The position numbers and the translations under genes are program-made. Positions 714-21,820 of a DNA stretch of 25,000 nucleotides are shown one piece after another. How positions within the stretch are numbered: position 1 is the first letter of the stretch; every line of letters starts with the position of its first letter. Source of the DNA: Anaeromyces robustus (taxonomy: Eukaryota > Neocallimastigomycota > Neocallimastigomycetes > Neocallimastigales > Neocallimastigaceae); assembly GCA_002104895.1 (NCBI GenBank), contig MCFG01000136.1, forward strand, positions 72,501 through 97,500, given 5' to 3'. The notes under the pieces were generated by a model. That model saw only the letters and a list, made by a program, of their open reading frames with translations. It did no database searches and was not told the origin of the DNA.

Positions 714-2290
714 TTATTTATATGCTCCATAATTATTATCAATATCTGCACTATTACGGAATTTTATACTTTTATTGTAGTTTTTACCTTCAATATTATA
801 TACTTTTTCAGGTTTATTGAAATTTCTATTATTTTCATTACTAAGATTATCATAGTAATATTGTGAATTAATATTTCTTTGATTATAGATTTTTGGACTA
901 TATATTTGAGGACTAGTCATTTGAGAACTAGTCATTTGAGAACTAGTAAGTTTAGGACTGTAATTTTTATAACTTTTTTCTTTACTACTTATATTGTTAT
1001 AAGATCCTTTATTACTGCTAGTTTCATTTTTGGATATACATAATAAAATTTGATCTATAAACATCATATAATATTGAATACTTGCGACAAATAATCTTAA
1101 ATCGTCAAAATCAAATTCTACACTTTTATAATTTGGTTGTGCATTATACCAAAATTTAATACCAAGAGTAAATGCAGCAACTGGAACGAAAATTAACGAT
1201 ACACCAGCAGTGAAAAATATTCTATATTCAGAAATAGCTTTAAATTTCTTGAAAAATCCAAAATGTGATTCTGTTACTTTAAATACATATTTTTTTAATA
1301 CAAAAAAAACAGTTAAATCATATAAAAGAGCACCAATCATAATGGTGAATTGAATAATCCAATGTCTATTATAAAATTTATCTCTTTCATTTTGGTTGTA
1401 TATTCCATCATTTGTATATGTTTTTTTTAATGAATATAAGAATAAATGATTTAAAATCAATACAATTTTTGTTATGTTAAATATAATACATGTTATATAC
1501 ACAGGCATTATTTTCTTTTTATTCTTTACTACGGCTTTTGTACGAAGTAATGGATACCAATCACCTACCATTTCACCAGTATACCAAAAAATAGTAGCTG
1601 CTTGTCTAGTAATAAAAAATTTTAAAGGATGGTACTCATTTTTATCTACTGTATGATGACATGAATACACTTGAGTATTTTCGTTGAAAGATAAAGCAAA
1701 GTAAGTTGGGAATAAATCACCAGTTTTATCTAATATATCTCCAATTGCACTATGATAATAATTATTATAATAATAATAAAAATATTTAATAAATATATAT
1801 ATTTATATCTATCTATATTTAAATATTTATTTTTATTTATTTTTGTTTCTTTATATTTTATATTTTATATTTTATATTTTATATTGATATAGATATTAAT
1901 ATTGATATTAATTCATAGTTATTTATATATATTTACTTACCGTAATAAAAAGTGAAATAATATAATTTTCATTACAGGTTTTTTAAATTTAAATTTGTGT
2001 AAAAAGAATATAGTCATAGTCCAGAAAAAGAAATACATTTTTGAAAATGGCTGAGTCAAAGCAAGAAGTATTACTCTTACATAATTTATTTTTTGATTAA
2101 ATCCATAATCTGGATTTTGACGCATCATATAATCTACATAACATTCAAAACTTGTTCCTTTACTACCCAACCAATCTAAGAAAGAATAATCCTTTTCTCC
2201 TAAATTCGTAAGAAAATATTTTCTTTGAGATTCATATAGAGCATATTGTGCTTCTGTAAAATTAAGATTTTGTGGAATTGGAACTACCAT
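714..2290 (-). CDS. Seven-TM GPCR-like membrane protein, member A (two exons)
   Basis: Joining exon 2290-1941 to exon 1749-714 across a GTAAGT...TAG intron gives 461 residues; codon 117 (CG|T, Arg) is split in phase 2. The N-terminus (1-70) has an NFT glycosylation sequon and SKGT-SFECY with Cys50. Hydrophobic segments lie near 83-99, 106-124, 160-182, 197-222, 246-268, 294-317 and 333-354. Loops 100-104, 185-196 and 267-287 are rich in Lys/Arg, which by the positive-inside rule puts the N-terminus outside and the tail inside. Motifs: Cys147 before segment 3, GEMVGDWYPLLR at 175-186, FKKFK and EYR before segment 6, and QYYMMFIDQ in segment 7. The tail (355-461) is Ser/Asn/Tyr-rich with repeated TSSQM. 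It lies in the same orientation as the 3736-5126 gene; its closest relative here is the 20508-21820 copy. No named family is recognised; receptor function is inferred from topology only. Confidence 0.88.
1750..1940 (-). other. Spliceosomal intron of member A (191 nt)
   Basis: The donor reads GTAAGT and the acceptor ATCATAG on the minus strand. Without splicing, the upstream frame stops immediately after the donor (CGG TAA). Splicing restores a frame that continues the protein homology with the three other copies. The intron is almost pure A+T with AT-rich microsatellite sequence. Confidence 0.88.
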
Positions 2291-2486
2291 TTTAAATTAT
2301 TATTAATATTCTTTCATTCAAAAAAAATATTAATTAAATATTATAAATATTGTCAATAATAACAATATTTTTTTTATATTATACTTAAATTAATTATTAT
2401 TTTTTTTACAATTTAAATAAATTTTTTTTTAAAAGTAATAGTAATACTTTTTCTTTTAATTTTTAAAAAAAAATTTTTTTAAAAAG

Positions 2487-2519
<33 letters not shown>

Positions 2520-2816
2520 CATGAAGTAATCAAATATACGGTACTCACATGTATTGTTTCATTTTTTTTTTTTATTAAAAATTTAAATGATAAATTTCAT
2601 TGTAAATAAATATCCTATATAATATATTGTAATATACTATATTATACTATATTATAATATATTATAATATAATATATTGTTTATTATAATTATATAATAA
2701 TATATTATTAATATAAATAATAATTAAATTTTTTTATAAACATACAAAAATAAAAATAAAGAGCACAAAGAAAAATAGAATAAAATTAAATACTAATTAA
2801 TATTTAAAAAACTTTA

Positions 2817-2837
2817 AATAAATAAATAAATAAATAA

Positions 2838-2876
<39 letters not shown>

Positions 2877-2930
2877 ATATATAAATAAATAAATAAATAT
2901 ATAAATAAATAAATATATAAATATTTTTAT
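2817..2930. repeat. AAAT tetranucleotide microsatellite
   Basis: Repeated AAAT units, with ATAT interruptions in the second half. Similar arrays lie at 5928-6004 and 17401-17456. Confidence 0.93.
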
Positions 2931-3222
2931 ATTTTTTTTTAATAAATGAAAATATAATAATTAATAGTTATTATTATTACAAAAGGAAAAAAAAATTCTA
3001 TTTCAATAAATATATATAAAAAAAAATAGCGTATAATATAAAATTATTATATAATAATTATAATAAAAAATTATTAGTTTGAGAATACAATTTCCATTAA
3101 AAATATAATAAAAAAACTTTTTTCTTTTGGATACAATCATTATTTTAAACCGTTCTTAAAAAAAAAAAAAAAATAATTCAAATTAAAAGGTGATAATTTT
3201 TTTTTTCATATTATAAATTATA

Positions 3223-3285
3223 TATATTAAAAATATCTTAATATAATAAAATTTATATTAAAAATATCTTAATATTATGAAAATT
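3223..3285. repeat. 31-bp direct repeat, two units
   Basis: Two copies of a unit containing ATTAAAAATATCTTAATAT stand next to each other at 3223 and 3254. Confidence 0.7.
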
Positions 3286-3463
3286 CTTTTTATATTATTT
3301 TGTAATAATTTCTATATTACATCATATTATATTATATTGTACTTTAATAAATTAAATTATAATTTTTTACATTGTGTTAAATTACTTTTCATTGTGTGAT
3401 AACACTTTATTTTTTATTATTTTATTGTTATTTTTTTTTATTGTTTATGTTTCATTAATAATT

Positions 3464-3494
<31 letters not shown>

Positions 3495-3595
3495 TTATTA
3501 TTTTATTATTAATAATTTTTATTTTATTATTATTATTTTATTATTTATGTAGTGTATTTTTTTATTTATTTATTTATATATACTCTATTTTTTAA

Positions 3596-3750
3596 TTAAT
3601 TAATTAATTAATTATTTATTTAATTATTCATTCATTCATTTATTTATTATTATAATTAATTAACTAATTATTTAATTATTTATTTAATTATTTAATTATT
3701 TAATTATTTAATTATTTAATTATTTAATTATTTAATTATTTATTATTATA
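3596..3750. repeat. AATT/AATTATTT microsatellite at the 3' end of member B
   Basis: TTAA tetramers and then an eight-base AATTATTT period run into the stop codon of the 3736-5126 gene. Length changes here could alter the end of that protein. Confidence 0.85.
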
Positions 3751-5126
3751 CTTATTATAATCAATATTATAGGAAGTTAATTCTTTGTATTTAGCATCAT
3801 TTAAAAATCCAAAATCATTATTTGTATTTAATGGAGTGCTATCTGATATAAAGGTAGTTCCTAATTCTACTGAATTAGTACTACTAATATGATTTAATAA
3901 GTCACTATTTGAAACACTATAATTCATATTTTCATAACGGAATCTACCACTACTGTATTTATTATTATAACTCCTTGAATATATTTCAGCGGAATTAGTA
4001 GATATATTATTAGAATGAATAAGAAATATTTGATCAACAAAAATCATGAAATATTGTAGACCAGCTAAAAAATCTCTAAGTTCTTCCATTGTAAAATCAA
4101 CTCCAGTTTCTGCATTCTTTATATGATAAATCATATGTAATATACCGGCTGAAGAAACTAATAACATGGAAATGAAATTAAAAATTTGCATACATGAAAG
4201 TCTATATTCAGGAACATTTTTAAACTTTTTACTGAAATTACTATATTCTGAATATTTAGTTTGATGAATATATCTTCTTATAACAATCCATACTGAAATA
4301 CTATAAATAGCTGATGCATAAGTAACAATTAATCGAATAAAGGTTAAATTTAAATTATATTTATTTATTTTTTCTGTATTATACATTCCATTATTATCGT
4401 ATATATTTGATGGACCAAGAGTTAAGTTATATGCAGCTAAAACTATTTTTGATATATTAAAAAGTATAGAGGTAAAAATAACAGATATAGCTTCTTTTTT
4501 TGAATTTACTATTTCAATTGTACGAAGTAAAGGATATAAATCACCAATTATTTCACCCAAAATTGAAAAGACATTTCCTAATTCTATTTTAAATAGCCAT
4601 TTATATGGATGAATAGAATCAAATATACATCCTGTGTTACTATTAACAAAATAATGAGGCCATAATTCACTAATTTGCTTAAATATTTCACTTATAGAAC
4701 TATTAGTAGTGTTATATATATATATATATAAATATCATTAATAAAGTATTTTCCATTAAAATTTATTTAAAAATTTATAAATATAATATAATATAATATA
4801 TGATATTATGAAATAAAAATATAAGAACTATTTAATTACCGTAAAGTATAATAAGTTAAAACTAATTTCATAACTTTATGTTTAAAATTAAACTTGTATA
4901 AGATAAATAATAACACTGTCCAATAAAAGAATGTATATTGTAGTGGTTTATATATAGCACCAATTATTATTCTTATAGTACTAACTGTTAAATCTAATTC
5001 TTGAGCTGGTGAAAATGAACTTTTAAATTCTTTATAGCATTCATAACTTGTTCCTTTACTTGATAACCACTTTAGTGTACCAGGACTTTCATTTTGAATA
5101 AATTGGCTTTCTTCATAGTTAAGCAT
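3736..5126 (-). CDS. Seven-TM GPCR-like membrane protein, member B (two exons)
   Basis: Exon 5126-4840 joined to exon 4699-3736 gives 416 residues, with Arg96 split CG|T. The start ATG at 5126 is supported by the equal 95-codon first exon of the copy at 14315-15680. Visible parts: a short N-terminus with an NES sequon at 12 and SKGTSYECY with Cys30; segment 1 near 62-78; conserved Cys120 in the loop before segment 3; GEIIGDLYPLLR at 144-155; a basic loop with KKFK and EYR; and QYFMIFVDQ in segment 7. The tail carries SNSD and SSTN runs and ends YNIDYNKYNNK, a motif shared with the 14315-15680 copy. The stop codon lies inside the edge of an AATTATTT microsatellite, so the 3' end may vary. Same family as the 714-2290 gene but the other subgroup. 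Function unknown; a sensory receptor is inferred from topology. Confidence 0.87.
4700..4839 (-). other. Spliceosomal intron of member B (140 nt)
   Basis: The donor is GTAATT and the acceptor ends ACTACTAATAG on the minus strand. The ACTAAT just before the AG resembles a branch-point consensus but is unusually close to it. The intron holds a TA-rich microsatellite. It is in the same phase and protein position as the introns of the other three copies. Confidence 0.85.
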
Positions 5127-5922
5127 TTTTTGTATATATTTATATATTACTTAAATTATTTTACTTAAATATTTATTAAAAAGTCTTTTATATATTTTTC
5201 TTTTTTCTTTTTTTTTATATTTCTTTATTTTTATATTTCTTTTTTTATATTATTTTTTTTTTTTTACTTTTACTTTTTTTTTATTTTGAATAGATATATA
5301 TATAATGTAGTTTTTAATTAATTATAAATATTATTTATTTTATTATATAATAAAATAAATATTTATTTAAAATATTTACTATTTTAAAGTAAAATAGTAA
5401 AGTAAAATATTTTATATTACTTAACTATTTTAAAAATTTTATTTTTTAAATCTATATTATAAAAAATGAAAATTTCAGGAAAAAAAATTTTTTTTTCAAA
5501 GTTTTTTTATTTTTTTTATTTTAACAAAAATAATAATTTTTTTCTATAATAAATAATTCTGCCAATGATATTAAATAAACCTTATTATTATTTATTACTA
5601 AATTTTAATTAATTATATATTTATAAGTATATTGAATTAATATATTATTAATTATTTAAAGTTAAAAAAAAAATCCATAAAAAGCAAAAAGGAAAATTAA
5701 AAAAATAATTAAAAGAAAAAGATAAAACAAACAACAACAATAATTAAAAAAAAAAAAAAAAAAAAAAAAATAAACGATGAAATAAATTTTGAAATATAAT
5801 AAAGTATGATTATTATTAATCTAAACAATAATAAAATAAATAAAAGTATTATTAAATAGAAATAAATAAATAATTATATAAATATATAAACATAAATATA
5901 CAAATTTACATATAAATAAAAT

Positions 5923-5982
<60 letters not shown>

Positions 5983-6788
5983 ATTAATAAATAAATAAAT
6001 AAATAATATTTTATTTATTATTTTTATTATTTAAATAAATTTTTATTTTTTAAGTAGAATTTTCCTTTATTATTTATGTAATTTAATTTAGTATATTATT
6101 TTTGTTCTATTTTTTTTTTCCCTTTTAATTATTATTATCGAAAAAATATTACAATAGAATTTAATATATTGTTTTATTAAATTCTAAACTTTAAAAGTTA
6201 CATTTTATATATTTTAAATTTTTGTTAAACTTAAAAAATTATTAAAAGCTCATATGTACCATAATTAATATAAAAAATAAAGGATACTACCTATTTCTAT
6301 ATAAATAAATAATTTTTTTTTTTGTATCACGTTTTTATTATTTATTTATTTATTTTATATATTATATATTTTATATATATTATAATAATTATTTACTTTT
6401 ATTAAATTTAAAAAAAAATATATATATATATATTTTAAATATAATGTTTCAAAAATTTACACAGTTATATATTGAATATTAAATTTAAAAATTTTTATAC
6501 ATAAAATAAAATATTACAAAAACAAAAAAGTATTACAAAAAAGTTATTTATTTAAAAAGATATAAATATAAAATTAATTTTTTCTATTTCTGCTGATATT
6601 ATAGTTTTTTGAAAATTTTAATATTTTGAAAATTTTTATTTGATATATTAAAAATTTAGAGTTATAGTCGTTTATTCTATGAGTATTAATATTTAAACTA
6701 TTTTAATTTTATTTCTGAACATAATATTATTAAGTCTTTTTTTTTTCTTAATGAAAATGATTCAGCTGATTTGTGGGAGAATTTAACG
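5127..6788. other. A+T-rich spacer upstream of member B
   Basis: Promoter side of the 3736-5126 gene. It holds poly-T and poly-A tracts (about 5747-5770), an AAAT array and no visible gene. Confidence 0.6.
5928..6004. repeat. AAAT tetranucleotide microsatellite
   Basis: About 18 copies of AAAT in a gene-free region. Confidence 0.93.
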
Positions 6789-7032
6789 GGCAACACATTA
6801 CCTTATTATATTAATGTTGCCTCTTTGATAAATTCCAAATAAAAATTTTAATATAGTTAATGTTGCCTCTTTGATAAATTCTAAATAATATTAATATAGT
6901 TAAATGTTGCCTCTTTGATAAATTCCAAATAAAAATTTTAATATAGTTAATGTTGCCTCTTTGATAAATTCCAAATAATGTTAATATAGTTAATGTTACT
7001 TCTTTGATAAATTCCAAATAATGTTAATATAG
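6789..7032. repeat. Tandem repeat of 43-47 bp, five units, with a leading hairpin
   Basis: Five units start at 6811, 6857, 6900, 6947 and 6990, each with the core ATGTTGCCTCTTTGATAA and ending ATATAG. Lengths run 46, 43, 47, 43, 43, which suggests duplication of a two-unit block. Just before the first unit, GGCAACA (6789-6795) is the reverse complement of TGTTGCC (6815-6821) and can form a hairpin. The apparent minus-strand ORF here is only the repeat read through. Confidence 0.88.
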
Positions 7033-7258
7033 TTAATTTAATTGTAATATGATATATTTTCTTGAATAATATATAAATTTTGAACTTGGAATTATTAATA
7101 CATGAAATAGAGTATAAACATCCATCTTAATATATATATATATATGTTACTTTTAACAAAATTTATTAATTATATAATTATTTTTTTATTTTCATTCTCA
7201 TTACATATATATTTAAGTGATTTTAATCAAAAAATATTTATATTAAATAATGATATTT

Positions 7259-7521
7259 GCTTTAAGATGTTTTTTTTTCTTATTATTTTTTTCTTGAATT
7301 AAAATGTTTTTTTTTATTATTTTTTGCTTTAATTAAAATGTTTTTTTTTCTTATTACCTTTACTTTAATTAAAATGTTTTTGTTTCTTATTATTTTTTGA
7401 TTTAATTAAAATGTTTTTTTTTATTATTTTTTTGCTTATATTAAAATGTTTTTGTTTCTTATTATCTTTGCTTTAATTAAAATATTCTTGTTTCTCATTA
7501 TCTTTGCTTTAATTTAATTTT
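7259..7521. repeat. Imperfect tandem repeat of about 33-37 bp
   Basis: About eight degenerate units containing TTAATTAAAATGTTTTT, followed by TTTCTTATTA and TTTGCTT. No coding frame spans it convincingly. Confidence 0.75.
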
Positions 7522-8113
7522 TTTTGTTTCTTTGAATTCTTTTTTAAAAAAAAATAATTATTAACATTTCCATTTTATTATAAAAATATAAAGCTATATA
7601 TTCTTTATTTTCTATAATTTTAATTTATATAGATTATATATAAATATTTTCCTGTTTTATTGTTATAATAATATATAACATTTATCATTGAAATTTTTTC
7701 ATTAATATTATATATATTAGGATATTCTTTTTGAAATAATGATATACTTATATTTGTTTTAATAATTTTTTTTGAATTATTTTGAATTTAAATTTTAACT
7801 ATTCTTTTTTTTTTTAAAAAAAAAATAGTTAAAATTTAATTAATAATTCTGAAGATTATAAAATAATATGTAGCACTAATTATTATATCATATATCATTT
7901 ATTAATTATAATAATATGAATTTACATCTTCATTATTTACTATTGAGATATTGTATTATAAAATATTAATTAGATAGTTGGCATTTTTATATAATTATAT
8001 TGTCATTTTAAATAATTCAAATATTATCGAAAAAAATAAGTAAAAATATGTTAATGTTATAATTTTACAACATAAATAACTTTTATAATAATTTTAATAA
8101 AATCTTCATGATA
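7522..8113. other. Gene-free spacer
   Basis: A foldback at about 7789-7838 (AATTTTAACTATTCTTTTTT against AAAAAATAGTTAAAATT) is the only structure seen. Confidence 0.5.
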
Positions 8114-8175
8114 ATTGGCAGTGATAGGCTAATTCCAATAACTGGAATAATTCAAACCCTACTTACTCTGCCAAT
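8114..8175. other. Nested 62-nt hairpin
   Basis: ATTGGCAG (8114-8121) can pair with CTGCCAAT (8168-8175), TAGG (8125-8128) with CCTA (8158-8161), and ATTCCA (8132-8137) with TGGAAT (8143-8148) across a five-base loop. It is much more G+C-rich than its surroundings. It is too short and lacks the A and B boxes for a tRNA. It could be a structured RNA or a foldback element end. Confidence 0.4.
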
Positions 8176-8261
8176 GTTTAAAGGTGAATTTAAATTTATA
8201 TGAATTAGAATTTAGAATTTAGGTATACTTTAAATCATTAATATAAATAAGTAACAATTTA

Positions 8262-8965
8262 GGATTTTTCTTGAAAAAAAAATTGATTGAACCCTAGATA
8301 AAAACTTAAATAATATATTATTTTGCAAAAGATATTGAACCCTAGATAAAAAATTAAATAATATGTTTTTTTACAAAGGATATTGAATTCTCTGTAAAAT
8401 TTAAGTAATATATGTTTCACAAATTTCAAAAAATCAATTTCTTTAAATGGATTATCAATTCTGTCTTAAAGTATTTTATCCAACAGTAGCTTGGAATTGG
8501 TTAATTTCACCATTTTTATTCCATAAATTTCAAATAATTCAAATTTATTTTATGTTTATTTAGGTTGTTATAAAGAATTAATTGAAATTTTAAATTATTT
8601 TCCATTGAATTCTTAATACTAAAAAAATATGATGTTATGGTTAATTATATTAGAATTGCTTCTTATTCATCACTATTTAAAATTGATGTAAAACAATTAA
8701 GAGTTTTTTTATTTACTTTTGTATAATTCTTTCTTGAATAACTAATTGATCAATTTTACTATTGTTATTTTCAAATCTTAAGCGTTATCATGTTTAATTC
8801 ATTTTAACATTAATAATACCTATTTTCTAAATTCTTTATCATTATTCGTTCCTACCATTTTTTTCTCTATTAATTTACATAAGGAATATAAAAAAATTGA
8901 ATTCCAAATTATAATTTCATCATAATTTTTATATAACATATAAAAGATATCATTCTATGTTGAAC
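8262..8965 (-). pseudogene. Possible decayed protein-coding sequence, family unknown
   Basis: Several minus-strand stretches read more like protein than the local background, but are split by stops and frame changes. About 8960-8826 gives NDIFYMLYKNYDEI... to VGTNNDKEFRK; about 8770-8715 gives FENNNSKIDQLVIQERIIQ; about 8475-8265 is open for nearly 70 codons, starting DRIDNPFKEIDFLKF and running through the 122-bp inverted-repeat arm. Use of GAA, GAT, CAA and GGT codons is higher than in plain spacer. I recognise no family and cannot rule out chance. A plus-strand 38-codon ORF at 8447-8563 overlaps it. Confidence 0.3.
8295..8416 (+). repeat. Left arm of a 122-bp inverted repeat
   Basis: This stretch matches the reverse complement of 10219-10340 over 122 bases with four mismatches by direct reading. 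It contains about 2.5 copies of an internal unit of roughly 48 bases, beginning ATTGAACCCTAGATAAAA. Similarity stops abruptly at both ends. Confidence 0.9.
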
Positions 8966-9994
8966 TACTCTAATCAATAGCAAAATATTTATTCTGTTGT
9001 ACTATTTTTTTTATCTATAATTATAAATTATTATAAAATATAATAATGGATTAGATAAAAAAATAATAATATTTAAATTATATATAATTTTTTAATTGAA
9101 TTATATGATATAATACTTAACAAATAATTGAATTATTTTACTGCCAAAATTTTATTTTAATTTGGGTTTAGCTAACCACAGATTAAAAAAAATTTAATAA
9201 TAATAATAGTTATTCAAATTTATATATGTTATTTTGGATAAAAACTTTTTTATTATTTATTATATTATAAATATTATTTAAATAAATTATGTAGTATATA
9301 TAAGCTTAGGTTTTTTAAAGGAAAATATTGATATATATAATTTGAATATTAAAATTTAAGAAAAAAAATATAAATAAATTAAAAAAATAAAAAAAATTAC
9401 TTTTTATTTTTTTTTTAAATTAATATATTTAATAATATTTAAAAAAAAAATAATATTTTATATTATAGCTACTAAGTTATTATGCTAGGAATAATTTATA
9501 TATGGATAAAATTGAATAATAATTTATACTAATATTTAAACATAATTTATGTATGGTTAGTTAAGTAACTTTTGTAAATATTTAATATAAATATAAAATA
9601 ATATTTTGCTTTAAAAATAATTATTAGTTTAAATAAGATATTTTATATGTTTAATAAAATAATACTTGACTTTTAAAACAAAAATTATTATAAAAATTTA
9701 AGATAATTTCTTTTTTTTTAAAAATTATTCTATATTAAGAAAACTTTTTAAAAATTTTAAAAAACGAAAGTGATTTTCTTTATAAGTATATTTTTAATAC
9801 TTAAGAAATAGAAATTCTAATAAAAAAAAAAGAACAATAAACAATTATAATAGATTCAACTAGGATAGAAAAAAACAAATTTTATTAATTATTAAATATA
9901 TTTATATTGTTATTATAATTTTTTATTATGATGAATAAAAGAAGAATAATTAAATAACTACTATAGTTTCTTTTTAATTTAATTTCAAATTATA
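8966..9994. other. Gene-free spacer inside the inverted repeat
   Basis: A+T-rich, with GGTTTAGCTAACC-like palindromic sequence near 9163-9178. No coding stretch was seen. Confidence 0.5.
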
Positions 9995-10150
9995 CTTTTT
10001 TTTTATTATTTTAATAATTGTTATACAAAGTAATGAATATAATTTTTTATAGATGTAAAAATTAATTTTTTTATTTAATAATTAAGCAAAGTAATTTGGA
10101 AATATATCACTCTATTTATCAATCATATTTTCAAATGAATTATGATAATA
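9995..10150 (-). pseudogene. Relic of exon 2 of the seven-TM family
   Basis: On the minus strand, 10140-10083 reads like the start of exon 2 in the 714-2290 gene: it gives S-FENMIDK-stop-SDIFPNYFA-stop, where that gene has A-IGDILDKTGDLFPTYFAL. The DNA next to it (TATGATAATAAT at 10141-10152) matches the intron end of that gene, though the AG acceptor is lost. After a deletion, 10042-9995 resembles the segment-3 end (TATTCATTACTTTGTATA where the gene has TATCCATTACTTCGTACA). Two stops, a lost splice site and missing parts show it is dead. No matching first exon was found upstream. Confidence 0.6.
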
Positions 10151-10218
10151 ATAAATAATAAATAATAAATAATAATAATAAATAATAAATAATAAATAAT
10201 AATAATAATACTAATACT

Positions 10219-10340
10219 AACATATATTACTTAAATTTTACAGAGAGTTCTATATCCTTTGTAAAAAAATATATTATTTAATTTTTTATATAGGGTTCAA
10301 TATCTTTTGCAAAATAATATATTATTTAAGTTTTTATCTA
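10219..10340 (-). repeat. Right arm of the 122-bp inverted repeat
   Basis: Near-perfect reverse-complement copy of 8295-8416 (four mismatches), lying about 70 bases beyond the exon-2 relic and flanked on both sides by CTAATA and AAT microsatellites. The frame that is open through the left arm is also open here. Confidence 0.9.
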
Positions 10341-10493
10341 ATACTAATACTAACACTAATACTAATAATAGTAATAAAAAGAAAACATAATAAAATAATA
10401 ATAATAATAATATTAATAATAATAGTAATAAAAAGAAAACATAAAAAAATTATAATAATGACAATAATAAAATAATAATAATAATAATAGTAA

Positions 10494-10628
10494 TAAAAAG
10501 AAAACGTAATAAAAAAAGAAAAATTATAATAAAAAAGAAATATAATAAAATAAAGGGTTAAATTATTTTTATTTATAAATTTAATTGTTAGATCAAACTA
10601 AAATAGAAATTATTAATAATAATAAATA

Positions 10629-10660
<32 letters not shown>

Positions 10661-10719
10661 TATATAAATTAAATATTGTTGTTGAAGGAAATAGAAATTG
10701 AATTATTAATAATAATAAA
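10494..10719. repeat. Direct duplication, copy 1
   Basis: The blocks at 10498-10590 and 10660-10718 recur at 11818-11907 and 11965-12021 in the same orientation (shared AAATTGAATTATTAATAATA and TATTGTTGTTGAAG). Copy 1 has an ACA microsatellite (about 10632-10660) between the blocks. Partial extra copies of the leading AGTAATAAAAAGAAAACA motif lie at about 10366 and 10421. Confidence 0.75.
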
Positions 10720-10805
10720 TAACAACAACAATTATTAATATATAATAATAGTAATTATAATTACATTGATAATATATTAATGTATTTAATACTATTATTG
10801 AAACT

Positions 10806-11444: not shown

Positions 11445-11496
<52 letters not shown>

Positions 11497-11546: not shown

Positions 11547-11580
<34 letters not shown>

Positions 11581-11737
11581 GTAATAATAATAATAGTAAT
11601 AAATAATAAATAATAATAATAATAATAATAATAGTAATAATAATAATAGTAATAAATAATAAATAATAATAATAATAATAATAATAAAATTATATTAATA
11701 ATAAATAATAATAATAATAATAATAATAATTAATAAT

Positions 11738-11774
<37 letters not shown>

Positions 11775-11817
11775 TAATAATAATAATAATAATAAAATAA
11801 TAATAATGATAATAGCA
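11445..11817. repeat. Long AAT trinucleotide array with interruptions
   Basis: About 370 bases of AAT units broken by AGT, AAAT and ATTAAT variants. Shorter AAT arrays occur at about 10143-10212 and 10390-10500. Confidence 0.93.
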
Positions 11818-12024
11818 AAAAGAAAACATAAAAAAGAAAAATTATAATAAAAAAGAAATATAATAAAATAAAGAGTTAAATTATTTTTATTTATAATTTA
11901 ATTGTTGGTTCATTTTTATCAATAATTTAATTGTTGATTCAAATCTTTTAAACATACATTCTAAAATATAAATTAAGTATTGTTGTTGAAGAAAATAAAA
12001 ATTGAATTATTAATAATAAGTAAA
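11816..12024. repeat. Direct duplication, copy 2
   Basis: Second copy of the 10494-10719 segment, about 1.3 kb downstream. In place of the ACA array it has a unique stretch with an internal near-repeat of TTTAATTGTTG. Both copies are preceded by AAT arrays, a likely route for unequal exchange. Confidence 0.75.
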
Positions 12025-12148
12025 TATCAATATATAATTGATCTTAAAAAAAAATTAAAGTTTAAATTCACTATAAAAGAAATAAAAAAATTTGAAATAG
12101 AATAATAACAACAAAAAAAATAGACATGATGTTCATAATTTGGTACTA

Positions 12149-12171
12149 GTGATAGTAGGGAGAGGAATTAA
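12149..12171. repeat. 23-bp direct repeat, copy 1
   Basis: A 23-base string containing GATAGTAGGGAGAGGAATT is repeated exactly at 12437-12459. The purine-rich core stands out in this A+T-rich DNA. Confidence 0.85.
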
Positions 12172-12436
12172 GGTGTTTCCTTGACATACATAAGGTTTCT
12201 TGGTTTATTCCACCTTTACTACAATGTAGATTCCTTTAGGTAATATAATGAATTATAATTACTCAAACAAATAATTATTTATAATAATATAATTTTCAAT
12301 ATTTAATGTAGTTTTAGTTATAATCGTGTATTTTCTTATTTATATATAATGTTTGCTTACAAGAAATGTTCTTAATGAGAATGTAGAGTCAAAGTGCAAA
12401 TATAAAATATATGATCATACCAAAGGTATCGATACT

Positions 12437-12459
12437 GTGATAGTAGGGAGAGGAATTAA
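12437..12459. repeat. 23-bp direct repeat, copy 2
   Basis: Exact copy of 12149-12171, 288 bases downstream. It is directly preceded by the palindrome GTATCGATAC (12426-12435). The enclosed segments (about 12129-12240 and 12350-12520) are also less A+T-rich than the flanks. Confidence 0.85.
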
Positions 12460-12747
12460 ATTTCGATACATTTATATATTCCAATGTACTTATATGATAA
12501 GTCTATAAAAAAAGACCATAATATTTATAAATTATGAATTTTAAATATAAATAAATAATAAATAAATTAATAAATAAAAAAAAAATTATAAATTACTGAT
12601 TTATTAATCAATTTCATAATAATTTAAAGTTTAAAAAAAAAGATAATATAAATTAAAATATATTATCTTTTTATTTAATGTGTTTTATTTTTTTAATATA
12701 TATTTAATATGTGTAATGTATTATAAATAAAGAAATTAGACTAACAT

Positions 12748-13200
12748 ATGGGTACCCATCTCCCATACATACACTACAGGTGTACCTTTAGGGTGATGCT
12801 ATATGACATATCGATTCGATGTCGCTGCTCCATCTATATCGTTACATTCTTCTAGAGTATAGTTCCTATACATTCTTACATAGTCTCCTTTTACCACGAG
12901 CATCAGGATGGAACTGCTTTCTCCTCACAGTGATCGCAATCATTGGCATGGTGGACTGTAGACTCGCCTAATTCCGAACAGATTTAACCGGTACCCACGC
13001 ATCAAGCCTAATGGAATCAAAGTATAGTACCTGATGTTGAGTAGGTAACACATATAAGGGAAAGCCTTTTGAATACCATGATGGTAACATGATACACCTA
13101 GAATAGAAACCTTACATGCATTAACACAGCCTTCAAATACTCTCTTGCTCCCAAGATCCCCACGATTACAATAATCCCAAAGCACCAACTTGGGAGTGAT
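12748..13200. other. G+C island of about 450 bp, nature unknown
   Basis: Base composition jumps to about 45-48% G+C (29 of 60 in 12901-12960) with sharp edges against A+T-rich spacer. The left edge is a perfect 12-base palindrome ATGGGTACCCAT; CATCTCCCA near the left end and TGGGAGTGATG at the right end are imperfect inverted repeats. On the minus strand one frame from 13200 to about 12736 (some 155 codons) has only three stops, at 12942-12940, 12927-12925 and 12801-12799; the first part is open for about 86 codons, with WDYCNRGD and GIQKAFPYMCYL. I recognise neither a protein family nor a structural RNA. It could be a decayed mobile element or transferred gene, or a structured RNA. Confidence 0.6.
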
Positions 13201-14314
13201 GTATTATATATTAATAAATTCCATTTTTTTGTTTGTTCTTTAAATATATTATTAATTATATTATCATATAATATTTAATGTTTTTTTTTTTTTTCTTTCT
13301 TTCTTTGTATTCAATATATAAATATTTAACATTTTAAAGTAGAAAAATTTGAAACAATAAAAAATAACGACTAAAAAAAGTTCCTTTGTTTCAATAAAAT
13401 ATTAGAAAATTTTTTATTAACCTTGCTTTAAATTAATAATATTGTCATATTTTTTGTCATTCTTTTATTGCAATATATATGAACTTTTTTTAAATGTTAA
13501 AAAATTGTATAATATATAAAATTAACATATATTATAAAATATTAAAAAATTAATGATATAAAAGAAATTATTATAATGAAAATTTATTAACACTTATACT
13601 TTTTAATTTTTAATACGAAATAAATATCCAAATAAAAACAAATAAAAATAAAAAGATATAATAAAAATTTATATTAATATATATTAGAATAATTAATTTG
13701 TTATATAATAATTTAATAAAATATTAGATAACATAAAGTTCATTATAATTTAATTAGTAAATAATTAATTAATTATAATATAACAATTTAATAAAGCACT
13801 GTTTTGGATTATCCATTATCATAAATAATTGGAAGAAAATGTTTGATTAAATTTTTTTGATATGTTTTAGTTTTTTCTTTTTTTTTTTTAAATTTTGGTT
13901 AATATAAAAATAATATAAATTAGAGTTTATTTAATTATAAATTTATTTTCTAGAATAATAAATTAAGGTTGGTATTATATATTTTATTTTATATAATATA
14001 TATTTAAGGATATTAACATATTATATTAAAAAATAAATAAAACAAAACAACAAAACACAAAAAAAAAAAAAAAAAAAATAAAAAATAAAAAAAAAAGAAA
14101 ATAATTATAATAAAAAATAATGTAAAAATTTTGTTTAATATGTTTATTTAATATTTTATAAATTACTTATAAATAATATTAAATTATTATTATATAATAA
14201 AAATATTATTTTTATATATAAAACATAATATTTTATAATTTTTTCTTATTTCTTATATTATATATTATTATATTATGTTATATTTTTATGTTAAATAAAT
14301 GACGAATTTTTATT
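13201..14314. other. A+T-rich spacer downstream of member C
   Basis: Homopolymer-rich (poly-A at about 14058-14077). No gene, relic or array of note. Confidence 0.55.
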
Positions 14315-15680
14315 TTAAATATTATTCCATTTATTATTTTTACTCATTCTATTATATTCATTATAATCAATATAATATGAAGTTAATTGTTTATATTTGT
14401 TATCATTTTTTGAATTATTATTAATATTATTATTATTTTCAGGTATTAATAAATCGTTATTTAAATTATTATGATTTAAATTTTCATAGTGAAATTTACC
14501 ACTAGAGATACCACTGTTATTACTATATTTATAATTATAGCTGCTAGAATAAACTTCAACACTACTAGAAGGAAGAATTTGAGAGTAAAAAAGTAATATT
14601 TGATCAATATAAATCATAAAATATTGAATGCTTGCTAAGAAATCTCTAAGTTCTTCCATTGTAAAGTCAATTGTTGTATTTTTATACTTTTTATTATATA
14701 TTAATTGAGATAGGTTTGCAATTGAAATTAATGACATAGCAATGATATTAAAGATCGAAGAAATCAGAATTCTAAATTCAGAAATATTTTTAAATTTTCT
14801 AATTATATTATTATGATCTAAGTATTTTCTTTGATAAATATATTTCTTAATTACTATACAAATCGAAATACTGTAAATAACTGAAGTATATGTAACTATT
14901 AATTGAATTAATATGTATTTTATGTTATGTTCTTTTATTAAATCATTTCTATATACTCCATTACTGTCATATATATCGGCAGGACCGATAGTTAATTTAT
15001 AGATAATTAAAAATAATTTTGATAAATTAAATAACATGCATGTCAAAAAAATAAATTTAATTTCTCTTTTTATGTTTGATATTTCTTTTATACGGAGTAA
15101 AAAATATAAATCACCAAAAATTTCACCTAAAAGAGAAAATACATTAGCCAATTCATTTTGTAACATCCATTTAATGGGATGAATAGCATTATTATTACAC
15201 TTTAGTTGATTATTTTGATCGTACTTGTTAGCATAATAGTTCGGCCATAAGTCACCTATTTTTTTAAGAATATCACCTAAAACACTATAAATAATATTAA
15301 ATAATTAATATATATTATATATACATTCATATATTTGTACTCATTTAAAAAAATAATTAAGTAATTTTAACATATATTTAAATATATAATTACTGTAAAA
15401 TGAAAAAAGCTAAAGTTAATTTAACAAATTTATTGTTAAATTTAAATTTATATAAGATCAATAATAATATGGTCCAAAAAAAAAAAGTATATTGTATTGG
15501 TTTATACAATATACTAAATATAATTTTTATATTTTCTACAGTCATTGATAATTTTGTACTTTTGGTAAGCTTACTATTAAATTCTAAATAGCATTGATAA
15601 TTCGTTCCTTTGCTCCATAACCATTCTAATGTACTAGCAGTTCTATTTTCTATAAAATAACTTTTATCAATATCTGCCAT
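14315..15680 (-). CDS. Seven-TM GPCR-like membrane protein, member C (two exons)
   Basis: Exon 15680-15394 joined to exon 15284-14315 gives 418 residues, with codon 96 split CA|T (His where the other copies have Arg). It has an NRT sequon at 12 and SKGTNYQCY with Cys30. Segment 1 (TFFFWTILLLILYKF) is followed by a basic FNNKFVK turn. Next come GDILKKIGDLWPNYYA at the start of exon 2, Cys125 in the following loop, GEIFGDLYFLLR at 149-160, a RKFK/EFR basic loop, and QYFMIYIDQ in segment 7. The tail has an Asn-rich run near NNNNINNN and the YIDYNEYN ending shared with the 3736-5126 copy, so these two form one subgroup. It is transcribed away from the xylanase gene across a 2-kb spacer. Function unknown; receptor-like topology is inferred. 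Confidence 0.87.
15285..15393 (-). other. Spliceosomal intron of member C (109 nt)
   Basis: The donor GTAATT directly follows CA of the split codon and the acceptor is TTTATAG on the minus strand. It is the shortest intron of the four copies. Splicing joins the first exon to a frame that starts VLGDILKKIGDLWP, which aligns with the other members. Confidence 0.86.
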
Positions 15681-16059
15681 TTTATTATTATATTATTTTT
15701 TTTATTATAAAATTATTTTTATTTTATTCGTATTATATTATTTTTTTTATTCTAAAATTATTTTTATTCTTATTTTACTTTTATTTATTGTTTTATTTTT
15801 GTTTATTATTTTATTTTTATATATTATTTTATCTTTATATATTATTTTATTTTTACTTTTTTATTTATTTATATTTTTACTTTTTTATTTATTTATATTT
15901 TTATATATTTTTTTATTTTGTTTTTAAATATATTTTTACTTTTTTATTCTTTTCTTTAATTTATATTTATATATATTATTTTTTTAATGAAAAATAAATA
16001 TTTTAAATATATAATTTTTTAATTAATTGTAAAAATTACATATTTTTGTTATATTCACA

Positions 16060-16093
<34 letters not shown>

Positions 16094-17339
16094 CGAAGTA
16101 TTTTTTCATATTTATATATTTATTTTTTATCTTAAACTTTATAATTCCACCAATTAGAAATTTTCCAACCTCAATATTAATTTATATCTACTAACTAGTT
16201 CATATATTATATATCAAATTAATTAATACATTAGATATTATATGATTAAATGTATTTCTTTCTAATACTTATAATTTATGTTTAAATAATAAAAAAATAG
16301 AAAAAGAATAATAATTATAATAATAAAAATATGTATATAATATAAGAATAATTAAAAAAAGATTAAATTTAAAAAGAATAATATAACTCTAAAGAAAGAA
16401 TAAGATGATATAACAATAATAATGATTATAATAAAATATAATAAAAAATAATTAGTAAATACATTTATAAATATACAAATAGTAACTGTGTAATAATAAT
16501 TATATATATAAAACATAATAAGTAATAATTACATAAATAAAAATAAATAATTAAACAAATAAATAATTAATTAATTAATTAAATCAATTGATAAAAAGTA
16601 TGAATAAAGTAACTTTTTTTTAATCATGTAGAATATATAAAAATTTTTACAATCAACTGATAATATATGTCAATTTTTAAACAACAAAAAAAAAAAAAGT
16701 TTGTTGTTATTCAATATATTATATTTAATATTTAAATTAAATTAATGATAAAAATATTTATTAAATATTTAATATATTTTATTACAAATTTTTATATTTA
16801 ATAATTAATAGAATTTTATATTTTCCAATTAATTTATTTTTAATATTTTTTAAGGTTTTTTTTTTTTTTGTCATAATTAAATTTTTCTTTTTTCATGCTT
16901 TTTATTTATTGTTTATATAATTCCCTTTGATTTTTTAAACCTTTTTATATATTATATAATTAATTAAATAGGATGTTATATAAGTTATATCAAATATGTA
17001 TATTTACTAATATTAAGTTGTGTATTTTATAAATGTTATATTATTTAATATGTATTTATTAAGTAATATAAATTGTTTAAAATTTTTTTATATAAAAATT
17101 AATTTTTAGTTTCTATTAGTTTTTATTATTATATTATTATTATTTAAACTTAGAATAATATAAATAATAAATTATAATCACAATATAGTATTTTTTGTTT
17201 CATTTTAAATTTTAATAAAAAATTAATTTAATAAAAGTTACATACAATTTCCACTTTTATGAGAATTTACATATATAAAATTAAATTCAAAGAATAATGC
17301 ATATTAAAATATATTAATAAAAATATTGTCTAAAAAAAG
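15681..17339. other. Divergent intergenic region between member C and the xylanase
   Basis: It must carry the promoters of both the minus-strand 14315-15680 gene and the plus-strand xylanase. It begins with TTTTTATTTATATATT-type repeats (about 15710-15970) and then becomes mixed A+T sequence. No conserved operator-like motif stands out. Confidence 0.5.
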
Positions 17340-17349
17340 TATATAAATA
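17340..17349 (+). promoter_or_regulatory. Candidate TATA box of the xylanase gene
   Basis: TATATAAATA lies about 350 bases before the xylanase ATG and is followed by a less A-rich stretch (TTTCTCTTCATAG) that could hold the transcription start. In DNA this A+T-rich such strings are common, so the call rests mostly on position. Confidence 0.22.
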
Positions 17350-17400
17350 CAAAAATTTCTCTTCATAGTGTTTTAAATACAAAATTAATAATTAAAAAAA

Positions 17401-17402
17401 AG

Positions 17403-17456
<54 letters not shown>
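17401..17456. repeat. AAAT microsatellite in the xylanase leader
   Basis: About 14 AAAT copies followed at once by a short ATTT array, so the two can pair as a foldback. It lies between the candidate TATA box and the xylanase ATG, so it may be part of the transcript leader. Confidence 0.9.
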
Positions 17457-17459
<3 letters not shown>

Positions 17460-17700
17460 ATTTATTTATTTATTTAAACATAGAATTATAGAAAGTAATA
17501 AATTAATATAAAGAATAAAATAAAATAAATTAAATATAAAAATATAAAAATAATAAAATATAAATAAAAGATAAAAAAATATAAAAATAAAAGCAAAAAA
17601 ATAAGTAAAAAAAGTAAATTATCAAAATAAAATTTAATAAAATAAAATAAAATAAAATAAAAAAATAGATTTTGGTAAATAATAAATTAATTAAATAAAA

Positions 17701-19551
17701 ATGAAAACTATTGATTTATTAATAATAACTTCAGCATTAGTTAGTGTTTCTCTTGCTAAACCAGCTGATAATGGTTGTTGGTCTGAAAAGTTCAACATTC
17801 CATGTTGTCAATCCACTTCTGAAGTAGTTAGAAAAACTTATGACGGTGAATGGGGTATAGAAGATGGTAAATGGTGTAGTATTGGTGAATCTACTAGACC
17901 AAGTGATGATGTTCCACCACCACCACCACCACCATCTGATCTTGATTCTTTGGTTGATCCAGCTGCTGATTGTGATATTACTGACTCTGTTACAGGTGAT
18001 TCTTTAGCTAAATTAGCACCATTCCGTATGGGTGTAGGATTAAACGGTGGTAATATTAGCAATTATACTCCAAGTTCTAAGAAAATGATGGAACTTATTA
18101 ATTATCAATTTAATTCTATGACTTACTCTAATGGTATGAAATCACTTTTTATTATGGATCAAGAAAAGTCACTTAAGAACTTAGCAGAAGGTAAAGAAGA
18201 AGTTGGTATAAATTTCTCAGGAGTTATAGATGGTTTAGAATTTTCAGCTAAAAATAATCTTAATATTAGAGGACATGTTTTAGTTTGGCATAAGCAAACT
18301 CCAGAATGGTTTTGGAGAAAAGATTTTGATGAAACTAAAGAATATGTCGATCGTGAAACTATTTTCAAGCGTTTAGATAGTTTCATGAAAAATTATTTTG
18401 ATTTCTTAAATTTCAACTACCCAGGTGTTGTAGATGTTGTTGATGTTGTTAATGAAGCTGTTGAAGTTCTTGAAGGAAAATATGATAATTCTACTGGTTG
18501 GTACACTCGTACAGAATCATATGAAGGTGATGAAAACATTTGGTATAACTTAGTTGGACCAGATTATGTTAAGGAAGCTTTCCGTATTGCTCGTAAATAT
18601 GCACTTCCAACCACTAAATTAGTTTATAATGATTATGATACTTGGAGAACTACTCCTCATGATAAAACTGAAGCTATTATTAATCTTATGAAAATATTAA
18701 AAGCTGAAGATTTAGTTGATGTTATTGGTATGGAATCTTATATTACTCCAGGTGAACCAACTCCAGAAGAATATGGTAAAGCTATTGAACGTTATGCTGC
18801 TGAAGGATTAGAAATTCAAATTACTGAATTTACTATTTATGTTACTGATGGTGATGATTGGTTAGAACAACAAACCATTCATTATCGTGATATGTTCAAA
18901 GCTATTATGGAAGCTTATAAAAAGGGAGCTAATATTACTAGTTTCACTGTTTTCGGTTTACAAGATGGTTATAGATTCTATGATAGTGATAGTACTAGAA
19001 CTCGTTTATATGACCACGATCTTCAAAAGAAACCAAACTTCCAAGCTATTATGGATATCTTAAAGGAATATAATGCCAAACTTGGAAAGACAGATGATAC
19101 TGAAACCACCAGTATTGAAGATGATGATTTTGAAACTACCAGTGTTGAAGATGATAATAATGAAACTACCAGTATTGAAGATGATGATATTGAAACATCA
19201 TTTGCTGAAGAATCTGAAACTGATGGTGTTGAAGATATTACAAGTGGTCTTGAAGATACTGAGAATTCTGAGGATTCTGACGATGATAATAAAAAAGAAA
19301 ATGAAAGTGATAAGAAAGAAGATGAAAGTGATAAGAAGGAAAATGAAGGTGAAGGTGATAAGAAGGAAGATGAAGGTGATAATAAGGAAAATGAAGGTAA
19401 TAAGAAGGAAAATGAAGGTGAAAAATCTGTTGATGATAACAAGGAAGATCTTAAAGATGGAGAAGATTCTTCTGAAAATGAAGATCAAGCTTTAGCTACT
19501 GATGGTAACGCTCCAGTAAAGGCTAAGAAGTGTGTTGTTAGACATAAATAA
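17701..19551 (+). CDS. Secreted GH10 endo-1,4-beta-xylanase with N-terminal fungal dockerin and acidic C-terminal tail
   Basis: The product has 616 residues and no intron. The signal peptide ends near SLA at 17-19. A fungal dockerin (CBM10-like) follows at about 25-62: CW at 26-27, CC at 35-36, WG at 51-52, WC at 58-59; four Cys fit two disulfides. This module binds cellulosomal scaffold proteins. A Pro run (72-78) leads to the GH10 barrel (about 100-460). Visible active-site parts are FNSMTYSNGMK (Asn144 and Lys147 for substrate), GHVLVWHKQTPEW, DVVNEA with acid/base Glu252, YNDYDTW and QITEF with nucleophile Glu376. So it should cleave xylan outside the cell. Oddities: Val replaces the usual Trp before DVVNEA, FGLQDGYRF stands where many GH10 enzymes have a Trp-containing motif, and residues 463-600 are a repeat-rich acidic tail ending KAKKCVVRHK. 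The upstream leader is AAAT-rich. Confidence 0.96.
   Translation: MKTIDLLIITSALVSVSLAKPADNGCWSEKFNIPCCQSTSEVVRKTYDGEWGIEDGKWCSIGESTRPSDDVPPPPPPPSDLDSLVDPAADCDITDSVTGDSLAKLAPFRMGVGLNGGNISNYTPSSKKMMELINYQFNSMTYSNGMKSLFIMDQEKSLKNLAEGKEEVGINFSGVIDGLEFSAKNNLNIRGHVLVWHKQTPEWFWRKDFDETKEYVDRETIFKRLDSFMKNYFDFLNFNYPGVVDVVDVVNEAVEVLEGKYDNSTGWYTRTESYEGDENIWYNLVGPDYVKEAFRIARKYALPTTKLVYNDYDTWRTTPHDKTEAIINLMKILKAEDLVDVIGMESYITPGEPTPEEYGKAIERYAAEGLEIQITEFTIYVTDGDDWLEQQTIHYRDMFKAIMEAYKKGANITSFTVFGLQDGYRFYDSDSTRTRLYDHDLQKKPNFQAIMDILKEYNAKLGKTDDTETTSIEDDDFETTSVEDDNNETTSIEDDDIETSFAEESETDGVEDITSGLEDTENSEDSDDDNKKENESDKKEDESDKKENEGEGDKKEDEGDNKENEGNKKENEGEKSVDDNKEDLKDGEDSSENEDQALATDGNAPVKAKKCVVRHK
19102..19221 (+). 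repeat. 30-bp coding repeat in the xylanase tail
   Basis: Residues 468-507 repeat a ten-residue ETT-S-[IV]-EDD unit about three to four times, the last copies degenerate. This Thr/Ser/Asp/Glu-rich stretch is probably a disordered, possibly O-glycosylated linker. Confidence 0.8.
19288..19419 (+). repeat. 21-bp coding repeat in the xylanase tail
   Basis: Residues 530-573 are about six heptads of the type DKKE-[ND]-E-[SG], encoded by a 21-bp minisatellite in frame with the gene. It is highly charged and likely disordered; copy number may vary among strains. Confidence 0.85.
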
Positions 19552-20507
19552 ATTAATATATAAATATATAAATAAATATAGAATGATGTAAAAATAAAAT
19601 AGTAATAATAATAGTAAAGAATAATGAACAATGATTATTAACAACAATAGATTATTTATTAAATTTTCCTTTGAATTGTTAATTTATTTAGATGTTACAA
19701 TCAATACATTTAAAAAGTATTATATATAAATATAAAATTATGAAAAAGAAATTTTTTAACAAATAAATGTTAAAATTCAAAAAAAAAAAAAATAAAATAA
19801 AAAAAATAAAATAAAAATATTTATTATATTATTATTTGTTTACTTAAAAAATAAATATAATGAAAAAAATTATATATATATATAATTTAAAAAAAAATAT
19901 TTATTTTAAATAAAATAAAATAAATAAAATAAAATAGTAATAAACAAAAAGAAATTTTTAGTAAAAATATATATTTTAATTAAAATATTTATTTATTTAT
20001 TTAATATTATATGAATAATGTTTATTATTTATTACATAATATAATATAATATAATATAATATAATATAATATAATATAATATAATATAATATAATATAAT
20101 ATAATATAATATAATATAATATAATATAATATAATATAATATAATACATATTTGGTAAAAATTTTCTAATGGAAAATTATATAAATTAAAAAGAAGACAA
20201 ATAAAAATTTGTTCTTTTTTTTTTTTTTTTTTTTAATTAAATGTCATTTTTGTTAAAGCTTTTTATTTATTACTTTTTTTTTTTAATTTATTTATTAATA
20301 TGATTCATAAAAAAATTAATTATAAAAAAAAATTATGGAAAAAAAAAAATAAAAAAAAAAAAAAACAAAATAATTATAAAAATTATAGAATAAAAAAAAT
20401 AATAAAATTATAAAAAAAATTATAGAATAAAAAAAAACAATAAATAAATATTAATCGAATTTTTTAAATGTTTGAGTTTTTTTTTTTTAATTAGATTAAA
20501 CTAGAAG
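19552..20507. other. Spacer between the xylanase and member D
   Basis: Xylanase 3' untranslated region, the AATAT array, then poly-T and poly-A tracts up to the ATG at 20508. No gene was seen. Confidence 0.55.
20036..20146. repeat. AATAT pentanucleotide microsatellite
   Basis: About 22 almost perfect copies of the pentamer ATAAT lie between the xylanase gene and the downstream receptor-like copy. Confidence 0.95.
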
Positions 20508-21820
20508 ATGGTCCCAAATATTCATAATTTTACTTCAGAAGATTATTCCTTATATGAATCAGAAAGAAAATATTTTCTTTCTGATTTAACAGAACGAAAC
20601 TATACATTTTTTGATTGGTTTTTCAGTAAAGGTACTAGTTTTGATTGTTATGTTGAAGCTATGAAAAAACAAACTTATGAAGATAAATTTAATAATAACA
20701 TTAATATTGTAAGGACAATTTTATTGGGAATTAGTCGACCATTTTCTATTGTTTATTTTTTCTGGACAATGCTAGTTTTTTTATTTCATGGTTTTAATTT
20801 AAAAAAGCCGGTAATGAAAATTATATTATTACATTTTGTATTACGGTAAGAGAAAAAAATAATATAAATATAAATATAAATATAAATATAAATATAAATA
20901 TAAATATAAATATAAATATAAATATAAGAAAAAGTATTAATATGAACGTAATTACTGTAATAATTATAATTAATGTCATCATTATTATTATTATTATTAT
21001 TATTAATATTATTATTATCATTATTACTATTATAATTATTAATATGATTTTATAATTATTACTATTATAATTATTAGTGCAACTGGAAATATGGTAGATA
21101 TGCTAGGTAACTTGTATTCAAATTATTATGCATTATCTTATGACAGTCAAACAGATACATATAGCTGTATTAATAATGGTACGAATGAGTATTTTCCAGC
21201 TAAATTTTTTTTTAAAAGATATATTGCTACAATATTATGGTATACAGGTGAAATTGTAGGCGATTGGTATTTATTACTAAGAACCAAAGATGTTGTAAAA
21301 AATGAAAATAAAATAAAAATTGTAAAATTGTCTTGTGCGTTTTATAATTTATCCAAGGTTTTATTAATATTATACCATTTTAGGTATAAAATAAATGTAC
21401 ACTGATAAAGGTGTACTTGATGAAGATAGAAGAACTAATTTTTATAAAGTTTATTGGGCCATACAAATTATTATTATCTTGAGTTCTTTCTTTTACGATG
21501 TTACTGTTTATATTATTTTACGGAAAAATCTATTCAAAGTTGCAGAATCACGTTTTGGATTTTTTAAAAAATTTAAAACTATATCTGAATATAGAATTGT
21601 TTTTACTGCCTTAGTAAGTGCAATATTTTTACCATTAATTGCCTTTACATTTGTTCTTAGAATATATTATAATTCAAAGGAAGAATATAAAAATGTTGGA
21701 TTTGATTTTGATGAACTTCGAAGAGTGGTTGCTAGCATCCAATATTACATGATGTTTATTGACCAAATTTTGTTATCAATTTCAAATAAAGAAGTAAGTA
21801 CTTATAATGAATCAAAATAA
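20508..21820 (+). pseudogene. Seven-TM GPCR-like membrane protein, member D: frameshifted, short tail
   Basis: Exon 20508-20845 (NFT sequon; SKGTSFDCY with Cys47) splices from CG|GTAAGA to TTATTAG|T at 21078. Exon 2 then reads RATGNMVDMLGN, Cys143 and GEIVGDWYLLLR, and runs to a stop at 21405 just after segment 4. The rest of the family sequence (YTDKGVLDEDRR, segments 5-7, QYYMMFIDQ) continues in another frame from about 21396 to 21820. Against the 714-2290 copy, the loop between segments 4 and 5 is 8 bases shorter, which explains the frameshift. The tail after segment 7 is only about 14 residues, against about 107 in that copy, and ends at a poly-A tract. Conservation on both sides of the break points to recent inactivation or a sequencing/assembly indel. 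A mini-intron of under 30 bases is the less likely alternative. Confidence 0.75.
20846..21077 (+). other. Intron of member D (232 nt), microsatellite-expanded
   Basis: The donor is GTAAGA and the acceptor TTATTAG, in the same phase and position as the other three copies. The intron is longest here because of a hexanucleotide AAATAT array at about 20863-20929 and an ATT array at about 20980-21005. Confidence 0.85.

Follow-up and report, generated by a model that had tools for sequence, protein, structure and literature searches.

We found that four gene copies and a decayed relic in a stretch of DNA from the anaerobic gut fungus Anaeromyces robustus belong to a dispersed set of receptor-like proteins with seven predicted transmembrane segments (TM1 to TM7), a set that has no class and is a member of no named family in the libraries searched. 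The stretch, called the window below, is 25,000 nucleotides (nt) long and comprises bases 72501-97500 of contig C42 (MCFG01000136.1), with a G+C content per kilobase of 9-31%; the genome has 70.2 Mb in 769 contigs. We narrowly favor the reading that these proteins form a fast-turnover family of plasma-membrane receptors that would work in the manner of G-protein-coupled receptors (GPCRs) and lie outside the catalogued classes.

A sequence-only reading of the window had reported four copies of the family. All four are present and three are intact, but the frame of the fourth is broken in exon 2. The parts of the four copies and the relic are as follows.

1941..2290, minus strand: copy 1, exon 1, N-terminus with SKGTSFECY, TM1 and TM2 (by splicing)
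1750-1940, minus strand: copy 1, GT-AG intron; spliced protein of 461 amino acids (aa)
714..1749, minus strand: copy 1, exon 2, from the end of TM2 and the first extracellular loop (ECL1) through TM7 to the Asn/Ser-rich C-terminal tail (C-tail)
4840..5126, minus strand: copy 2, exon 1 (by splicing)
4700-4839, minus strand: copy 2, GT-AG intron
3736..4699, minus strand: copy 2, exon 2; spliced protein of 416 aa
9477..10201, minus strand: relic of exon 2, decayed, enclosed by a 122-nt inverted repeat
15394..15680, minus strand: copy 3, exon 1 (by splicing)
15285-15393, minus strand: copy 3, GT-AG intron
14315..15284, minus strand: copy 3, exon 2; spliced protein of 418 aa
20508..20845, plus strand: copy 4, exon 1, intact
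20846-21077, plus strand: copy 4, intron (by splicing)
21078..21820, plus strand: copy 4, exon 2, with a frame change at about 21385-21402

The motifs SKGTxxxCY, GExxGD[WL]YxLLR and QY[YF]Mx[FY][IV]DQ, by which the copies had been recognized, are found in copies 1-3 and in pieces of copy 4. At its frame change, exon 2 of copy 4 is 8 nt shorter than that of copy 1 (compared by eye), and copy 4 is therefore likely to be either a pseudogene of recent origin or the product of an indel in the assembly. A further copy beyond the window, at C42:63994-65215, is likewise frame-changed in exon 2, so that the C42 cluster totals three intact genes, two frame-changed copies, and one relic. The relic had been placed at 9995-10150 and spans 9477-10201. 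Support for its being real is positive but weak: Copy 1 exon 2 aligns to it with a score of 260, whereas 200 dinucleotide shuffles reached 257 at most and six nearby intergenic stretches of 1.7 kb gave 187-205. The inverted repeat that flanks the relic lies at 8295-8416 and 10219-10340, with arms that are 97% complementary and 1802 nt apart, and a genome search matched just these two places in the window.

Searched against its own genome, the copy 1 protein matches 72 places at E ≤ 1, and its best non-self match has an E of 1.4e-78. After merging, 70 rows gave 49 loci (rows on contigs C70 and C712 were omitted), from which a 34-residue fragment at C120:27551 was dropped. The family thus comprises no fewer than 48 loci, spread over 30 contigs, and a query from the short clade described below adds four fragments (C61:2-220, C70, C467, and C234); all these locus counts are lower bounds. 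The window had been read as the site of a local expansion: The expansion is confirmed, but "local" is too narrow a description, C42 being one of the 10 contigs that hold two or more members. Two members show open reading frames (ORFs) as long as 1215 and 1941 aa, but these are artefacts of N stretches and were rejected.

A tree of 37 members, built by a quick method without copy 4 and seven unspliced relatives, separates 12 N-extended sequences from 25 short single-exon sequences, the split having a support of 100 (SH-aLRT). Assigning loci by hand from exon layout and similarity, we count 20 in the N-extended clade, mostly with one intron and including the C42 cluster, and 28 in the short single-exon clade; two of the N-extended group, L010 and C424, are intronless and read straight through. 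Copies 2 and 3 form a sister pair (support 100) and copy 1 pairs with two members on contig C346 (support 93), so the C42 cluster mixes two subfamilies. Exon 1 was located for 19 N-extended loci, and 18 of them, all except C424, carry the motif [SK][KR]GTxxxC[YF]; counts of this motif are circular within the eight loci (out of 15, seven remaining unspliced) whose splicing required this exon 1 motif. For one locus, C590b, exon 1 was not found. The ratio of nonsynonymous to synonymous divergence (dN/dS) is 0.18-0.75 in 13 out of 15 paralogue pairs, which overlap and are therefore not 13 independent tests; it is 1.11 in a near-identical pair (dS 0.01), and one pair is identical. The core sequences at C135:85769-86608 and C508:29099-29938 are identical and might stem from a single gene that was assembled twice.

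Averaged over the family, hydropathy shows seven peaks. Taken singly, 29 out of 37 members have seven peaks (copy 2 among them), six have six (including copy 1), one has five, and one, copy 3, has eight. With the N-terminus left out of the count, 31 of 36 distinct sequences have more lysine and arginine in the predicted intracellular loops (ICL1-3) and the start of the C-tail than in ECL1-3. Hydropathy and the positive-inside rule together predict that the proteins probably have the N-terminus outside and the C-terminus inside. The seven hydrophobic segments and the basic loops on one face that had been noticed in the window copies are therefore borne out, as predictions, across most of the family.

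Conservation differs between the two sides of the membrane: Inner loops score 0.565 and outer parts 0.367 (P = 2e-8, Mann-Whitney), and the cytosolic halves of the helices score 0.613 and the outer halves 0.511 (P = 6e-4). Adjacent columns are not independent, and the column scores were therefore also rotated as a control, with the end of TM7 shifted from column 294 to 304. A conserved inner face is moderately supported for the family as a whole and weakly supported for the window copies' own N-extended clade. Eight columns are invariant among 27 sequences (D111, Y113, R117, F222, R229, R274, D288, and Q289, numbered as in the single-exon member L036, on C239 from 15615); all except R274, which is near the outer start of TM7, lie where TM3, TM6, and TM7 meet the cytoplasm. 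Among 37 aligned rows, two of which have identical cores and whose ORFs were partly chosen by such motifs, D[WL]Yx3R[TI] in TM3 and [YF][ILV]DQ in TM7 occur in every row, and the full ICL3/TM6 motif, usually K-F-[KQR]-x-x-[ST]-x-[YFL]-R-[IL], in 32.

All 12 N-extended rows, eight of which were chosen by a pattern requiring an N-terminal Cys, have one or more Cys residues in the N-terminus and a further one in the loop between TM2 and TM3, which suggests that these cysteines form a disulfide. The C-tails have a median length of 142 aa and contain on average 28% Asn and 17% Ser plus Thr. Asn-rich low-complexity stretches are frequent in the gut-fungal phylum, according to the accessible part of a published study (PMC11878562), and the Asn-rich tails are therefore no receptor signature.

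Pfam was scanned with the full-length copies 1-3, with 27 trimmed members of alignment A1 jointly, and with 23 of these 27 individually. No model exceeded its cut-off in any scanned member, and this includes the transporter and enzyme families, a clear match to which had been named beforehand as grounds for abandoning the receptor-like description; copies 1-3 at full length match no Pfam family at E ≤ 10. Neither rhodopsin-type GPCRs (PF00001) nor Git3, STE2, STE3, Dicty_CAR (PF05462), or class C GPCRs (PF00003) are among the 19 families listed for the 27 members at E ≤ 10. Sequences in the PDB gave no match for copy 1 and, for the family profile, a single match of E 0.13 to a G-protein construct. 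Viral contigs yielded 105 pattern stretches and prokaryote genomes 80, none of which was confirmed in either set, from which records of the fungus's own or a very near genome may be excluded. We found no description of the family in the literature, judged by titles and abstract openings. The impression from the window alone that no named family fits thus holds across these libraries.

Two Pfam families come near without reaching their thresholds. Srd (PF10317) is a nematode family of seven-transmembrane chemoreceptors with lineage-specific expansion. One member of the new family, L033, scores 22.4 bits against it over residues 115-193, but this is below the cut-off of 22.8. DUF6796 (PF20599) occurs in the same genome, and four of the 27 members match it over about 50 residues around TM6 (E 0.0067-0.065). 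These matches are all below the cut-off, however, the best member scan reaching 16.5 bits against a cut-off of 26.9 and the genome search 21.1 bits at C569, and the model is shorter, with 225 positions. Alignment of profiles by hhalign gave a probability of 0.3% for this link (2-sequence profile, no positive control), and we rejected it. DUF6796 itself exceeds its cut-off at seven places in the genome: three in a row at C767:56969-62290, and on C225, C387, C679, and C423.

One of the closest parallels is with the class C GPCRs of gut fungi, which likewise have seven helices, an outside N-terminus, and large families. They are abundant here: With 150 of 187 candidates scored, PF00003 matches at least 142 places at E ≤ 1. 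None of these places, compared by eye, coincides with a locus of the new family. The two differ in their conserved motifs, and no sequence or profile relation between them was found; hhalign of A1 against a profile of three class C domains from this genome gave a probability of 0.1% (no positive control). Class C receptors also have a large ligand-binding ectodomain, whereas the window copies have at most about 85 aa before TM1. We therefore rejected class C membership, the 27 members having no PF00003 match and the N-termini being short, without a large extracellular binding domain. At C590:110120-113682 and C346:144338-150988, the distance between members of the new family and class C GPCR matches is no more than about 2-5 kb.

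An AlphaFold model was made for exon 2 of copy 1 (247 residues, TM3-TM7) from an alignment of five rows. It has a mean predicted local distance difference test score (pLDDT) of 73.2 and a predicted template modeling score (pTM) of 0.69, and its long helices span residues 41-74, 77-104, 119-154, 173-202, and 214-245. Among the 50 fold matches listed for it, 22 are GPCRs, and class B (calcitonin/amylin receptors) is the commonest class. Their E values are 0.14 or worse and not significant, however, and for a model lacking TM1-2 and built on a thin alignment they are at most a lead.

Several observations weigh against a receptor reading. Five out of the 36 distinct sequences have no excess of basic residues inside, and, out of 312 rotations of the scores, 16 were as high as the real conservation contrast when all rows were used, 12 when the short clade was used, and 45 when the N-extended clade was used. 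Rhodopsin-type GPCRs carry E/DRY at TM3 and NPxxY at TM7. As the sequence-only reading had observed for the window, such canonical motifs are absent: [DE]RY and NPxxY are found in none of the 12 N-extended rows (over all 37 rows [DE]RY occurs twice and NPxxY once, counted anywhere in the sequence). The Srd match is confined to one of 27 members, and the corresponding genome-wide search reached E 0.0675 and 16.9 bits. The partial model, built on five rows and lacking TM1-2, has 277 matches in the PDB at E ≤ 10, of which none reaches E ≤ 0.001; GPCRs in the list have TM-scores of 0.22-0.35 and are mixed among unrelated helical proteins, and the top listed TM-score (0.43/0.53) belongs to a helical bundle, 4dzu, that is not a GPCR. 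Of the receptor proposed originally, the seven segments and, probably, the outside N-terminus stand; receptor identity does not gain from a TM3-7 model with no significant PDB match. Finally, several conserved charged residues are inside predicted helices, which would also suit a transporter or channel.

Because of these charged residues, the main rival is a lineage-expanded seven-helix transporter or ion channel, in which conserved residues of TM2, TM3, TM4, TM5, and TM7 (R, D, N, K, D, DQ) would line a substrate or ion path and expansion would reflect the varied sugars or ions of the rumen. The available portion of one survey (PMC5168858) reports many small-solute transporters in gut fungi, and the conserved charges do lie in or beside predicted helices. 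We nevertheless regard this as rather unlikely: The invariant positions gather on the cytoplasmic side instead of running across the membrane, no such Pfam family reaches its cut-off in the scanned members, the single match among PDB sequences is to the G-protein construct, and the partial model has no significant fold match, ORAI appearing just at E 0.63-1.1.

It seems quite improbable that the family belongs to one of the known GPCR classes (C, A, Dicty-CAR/Git3-like, or nematode-Srd-like) and has diverged past profile detection. The identical topology, the Srd score barely under its cut-off in one member, and the recurrence of class B receptors in the subthreshold fold list would fit such an origin, but the profile comparison with class C domains, the positions of the PF00003 matches, and the absence of the class A, Git3, STE2, STE3, and Dicty_CAR models from the listed families, all given above, argue against it. 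A membrane enzyme, or a structural or lipid-handling membrane protein expanded in gut fungi, is very improbable. The invariant D, Y, R, D, and Q could be catalytic, and the receptor role that we favor is itself read from sequence; yet membrane hydrolases such as those of the CREST superfamily would be expected to have an invariant His, Cys, or Ser, none of which is invariant among the 27 sequences, and no Pfam enzyme family is above its cut-off. Nonfunctional repeat DNA or a mobile element encoding hydrophobic stretches by chance, to which a frame-changed copy and a relic within an inverted repeat might point, is scarcely credible, since three spliced frames in the window and many long frames elsewhere are open, 13 of the 15 pairs have a dN/dS below 1, and the inverted repeat is found at this one place only. 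Nor is the family resemblance due to chance, given the 72 genome matches, the eight invariant columns, and these dN/dS values.

Other features of the window were noted in passing. A GH10 xylanase gene (17701-19551, plus strand), which encodes a CBM_10 domain at the N-terminus as well as an acidic low-complexity tail, lies inside the family cluster and is in keeping with an anaerobic gut fungus. A G+C-richer block at 12740-13200 has at least 43 genome matches including itself (40 of 60 candidates scored), the others being 69-92% identical; it is a dispersed repeat. The 21-base stretch gatagtagggagaggaattaa occurs twice, at 12151-12171 and 12439-12459, with a spacing of 288 bases, and an ORF at 23403-23657 (minus strand) is built from a repeated CTLKNGFLLVNYN-like unit. 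Scanning of the window for Rfam families and tRNA gave no match.

If the proteins are receptors, as we are slightly inclined to believe, ligands from digesta or plant material would bind the variable outer face, and movement of the helices would be read out through the conserved cytoplasmic cluster formed by D-[WL]-Y-x3-R-[TI] in TM3, the ICL3/TM6 motif, and [YF]-[ILV]-D-Q in TM7. Their partner would be a heterotrimeric G protein. Such a partner is available, because G-alpha models match several loci in the genome (30 exon-level matches, several above the cut-off). The long Asn/Ser-rich C-tail may serve regulation or anchoring. The clusters, the frame-changed copies, the relic, and the total of at least 48 loci indicate birth and death of genes, as in chemoreceptor families.

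The motile zoospores are a plausible place of use. They move by chemotaxis toward soluble sugars and phenolic acids, and haems trigger their release, according to the accessible text of a review (PMC7609409); the word "receptor" is absent from that text on zoospore chemotaxis. Surveys by InterPro keywords, of the kind described in the available portion of PMC5168858, would overlook the family because it has no model. Tentatively, and with considerable doubt, we suggest that it could be an uncatalogued class of seven-helix receptors with a cytoplasmic switch of its own (TM3 D-[WL]-Y-x3-R, TM6 R, TM7 D-Q), which arose and expanded in the anaerobic gut fungi and would give zoospores a sense for plant-derived chemicals alongside the class C receptors. 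Should the proteins prove to be receptors, they would constitute a second large sensory repertoire in this genome, a testable candidate for how gut fungi locate plant tissue, and a new class in which to study the origins of seven-transmembrane receptors.

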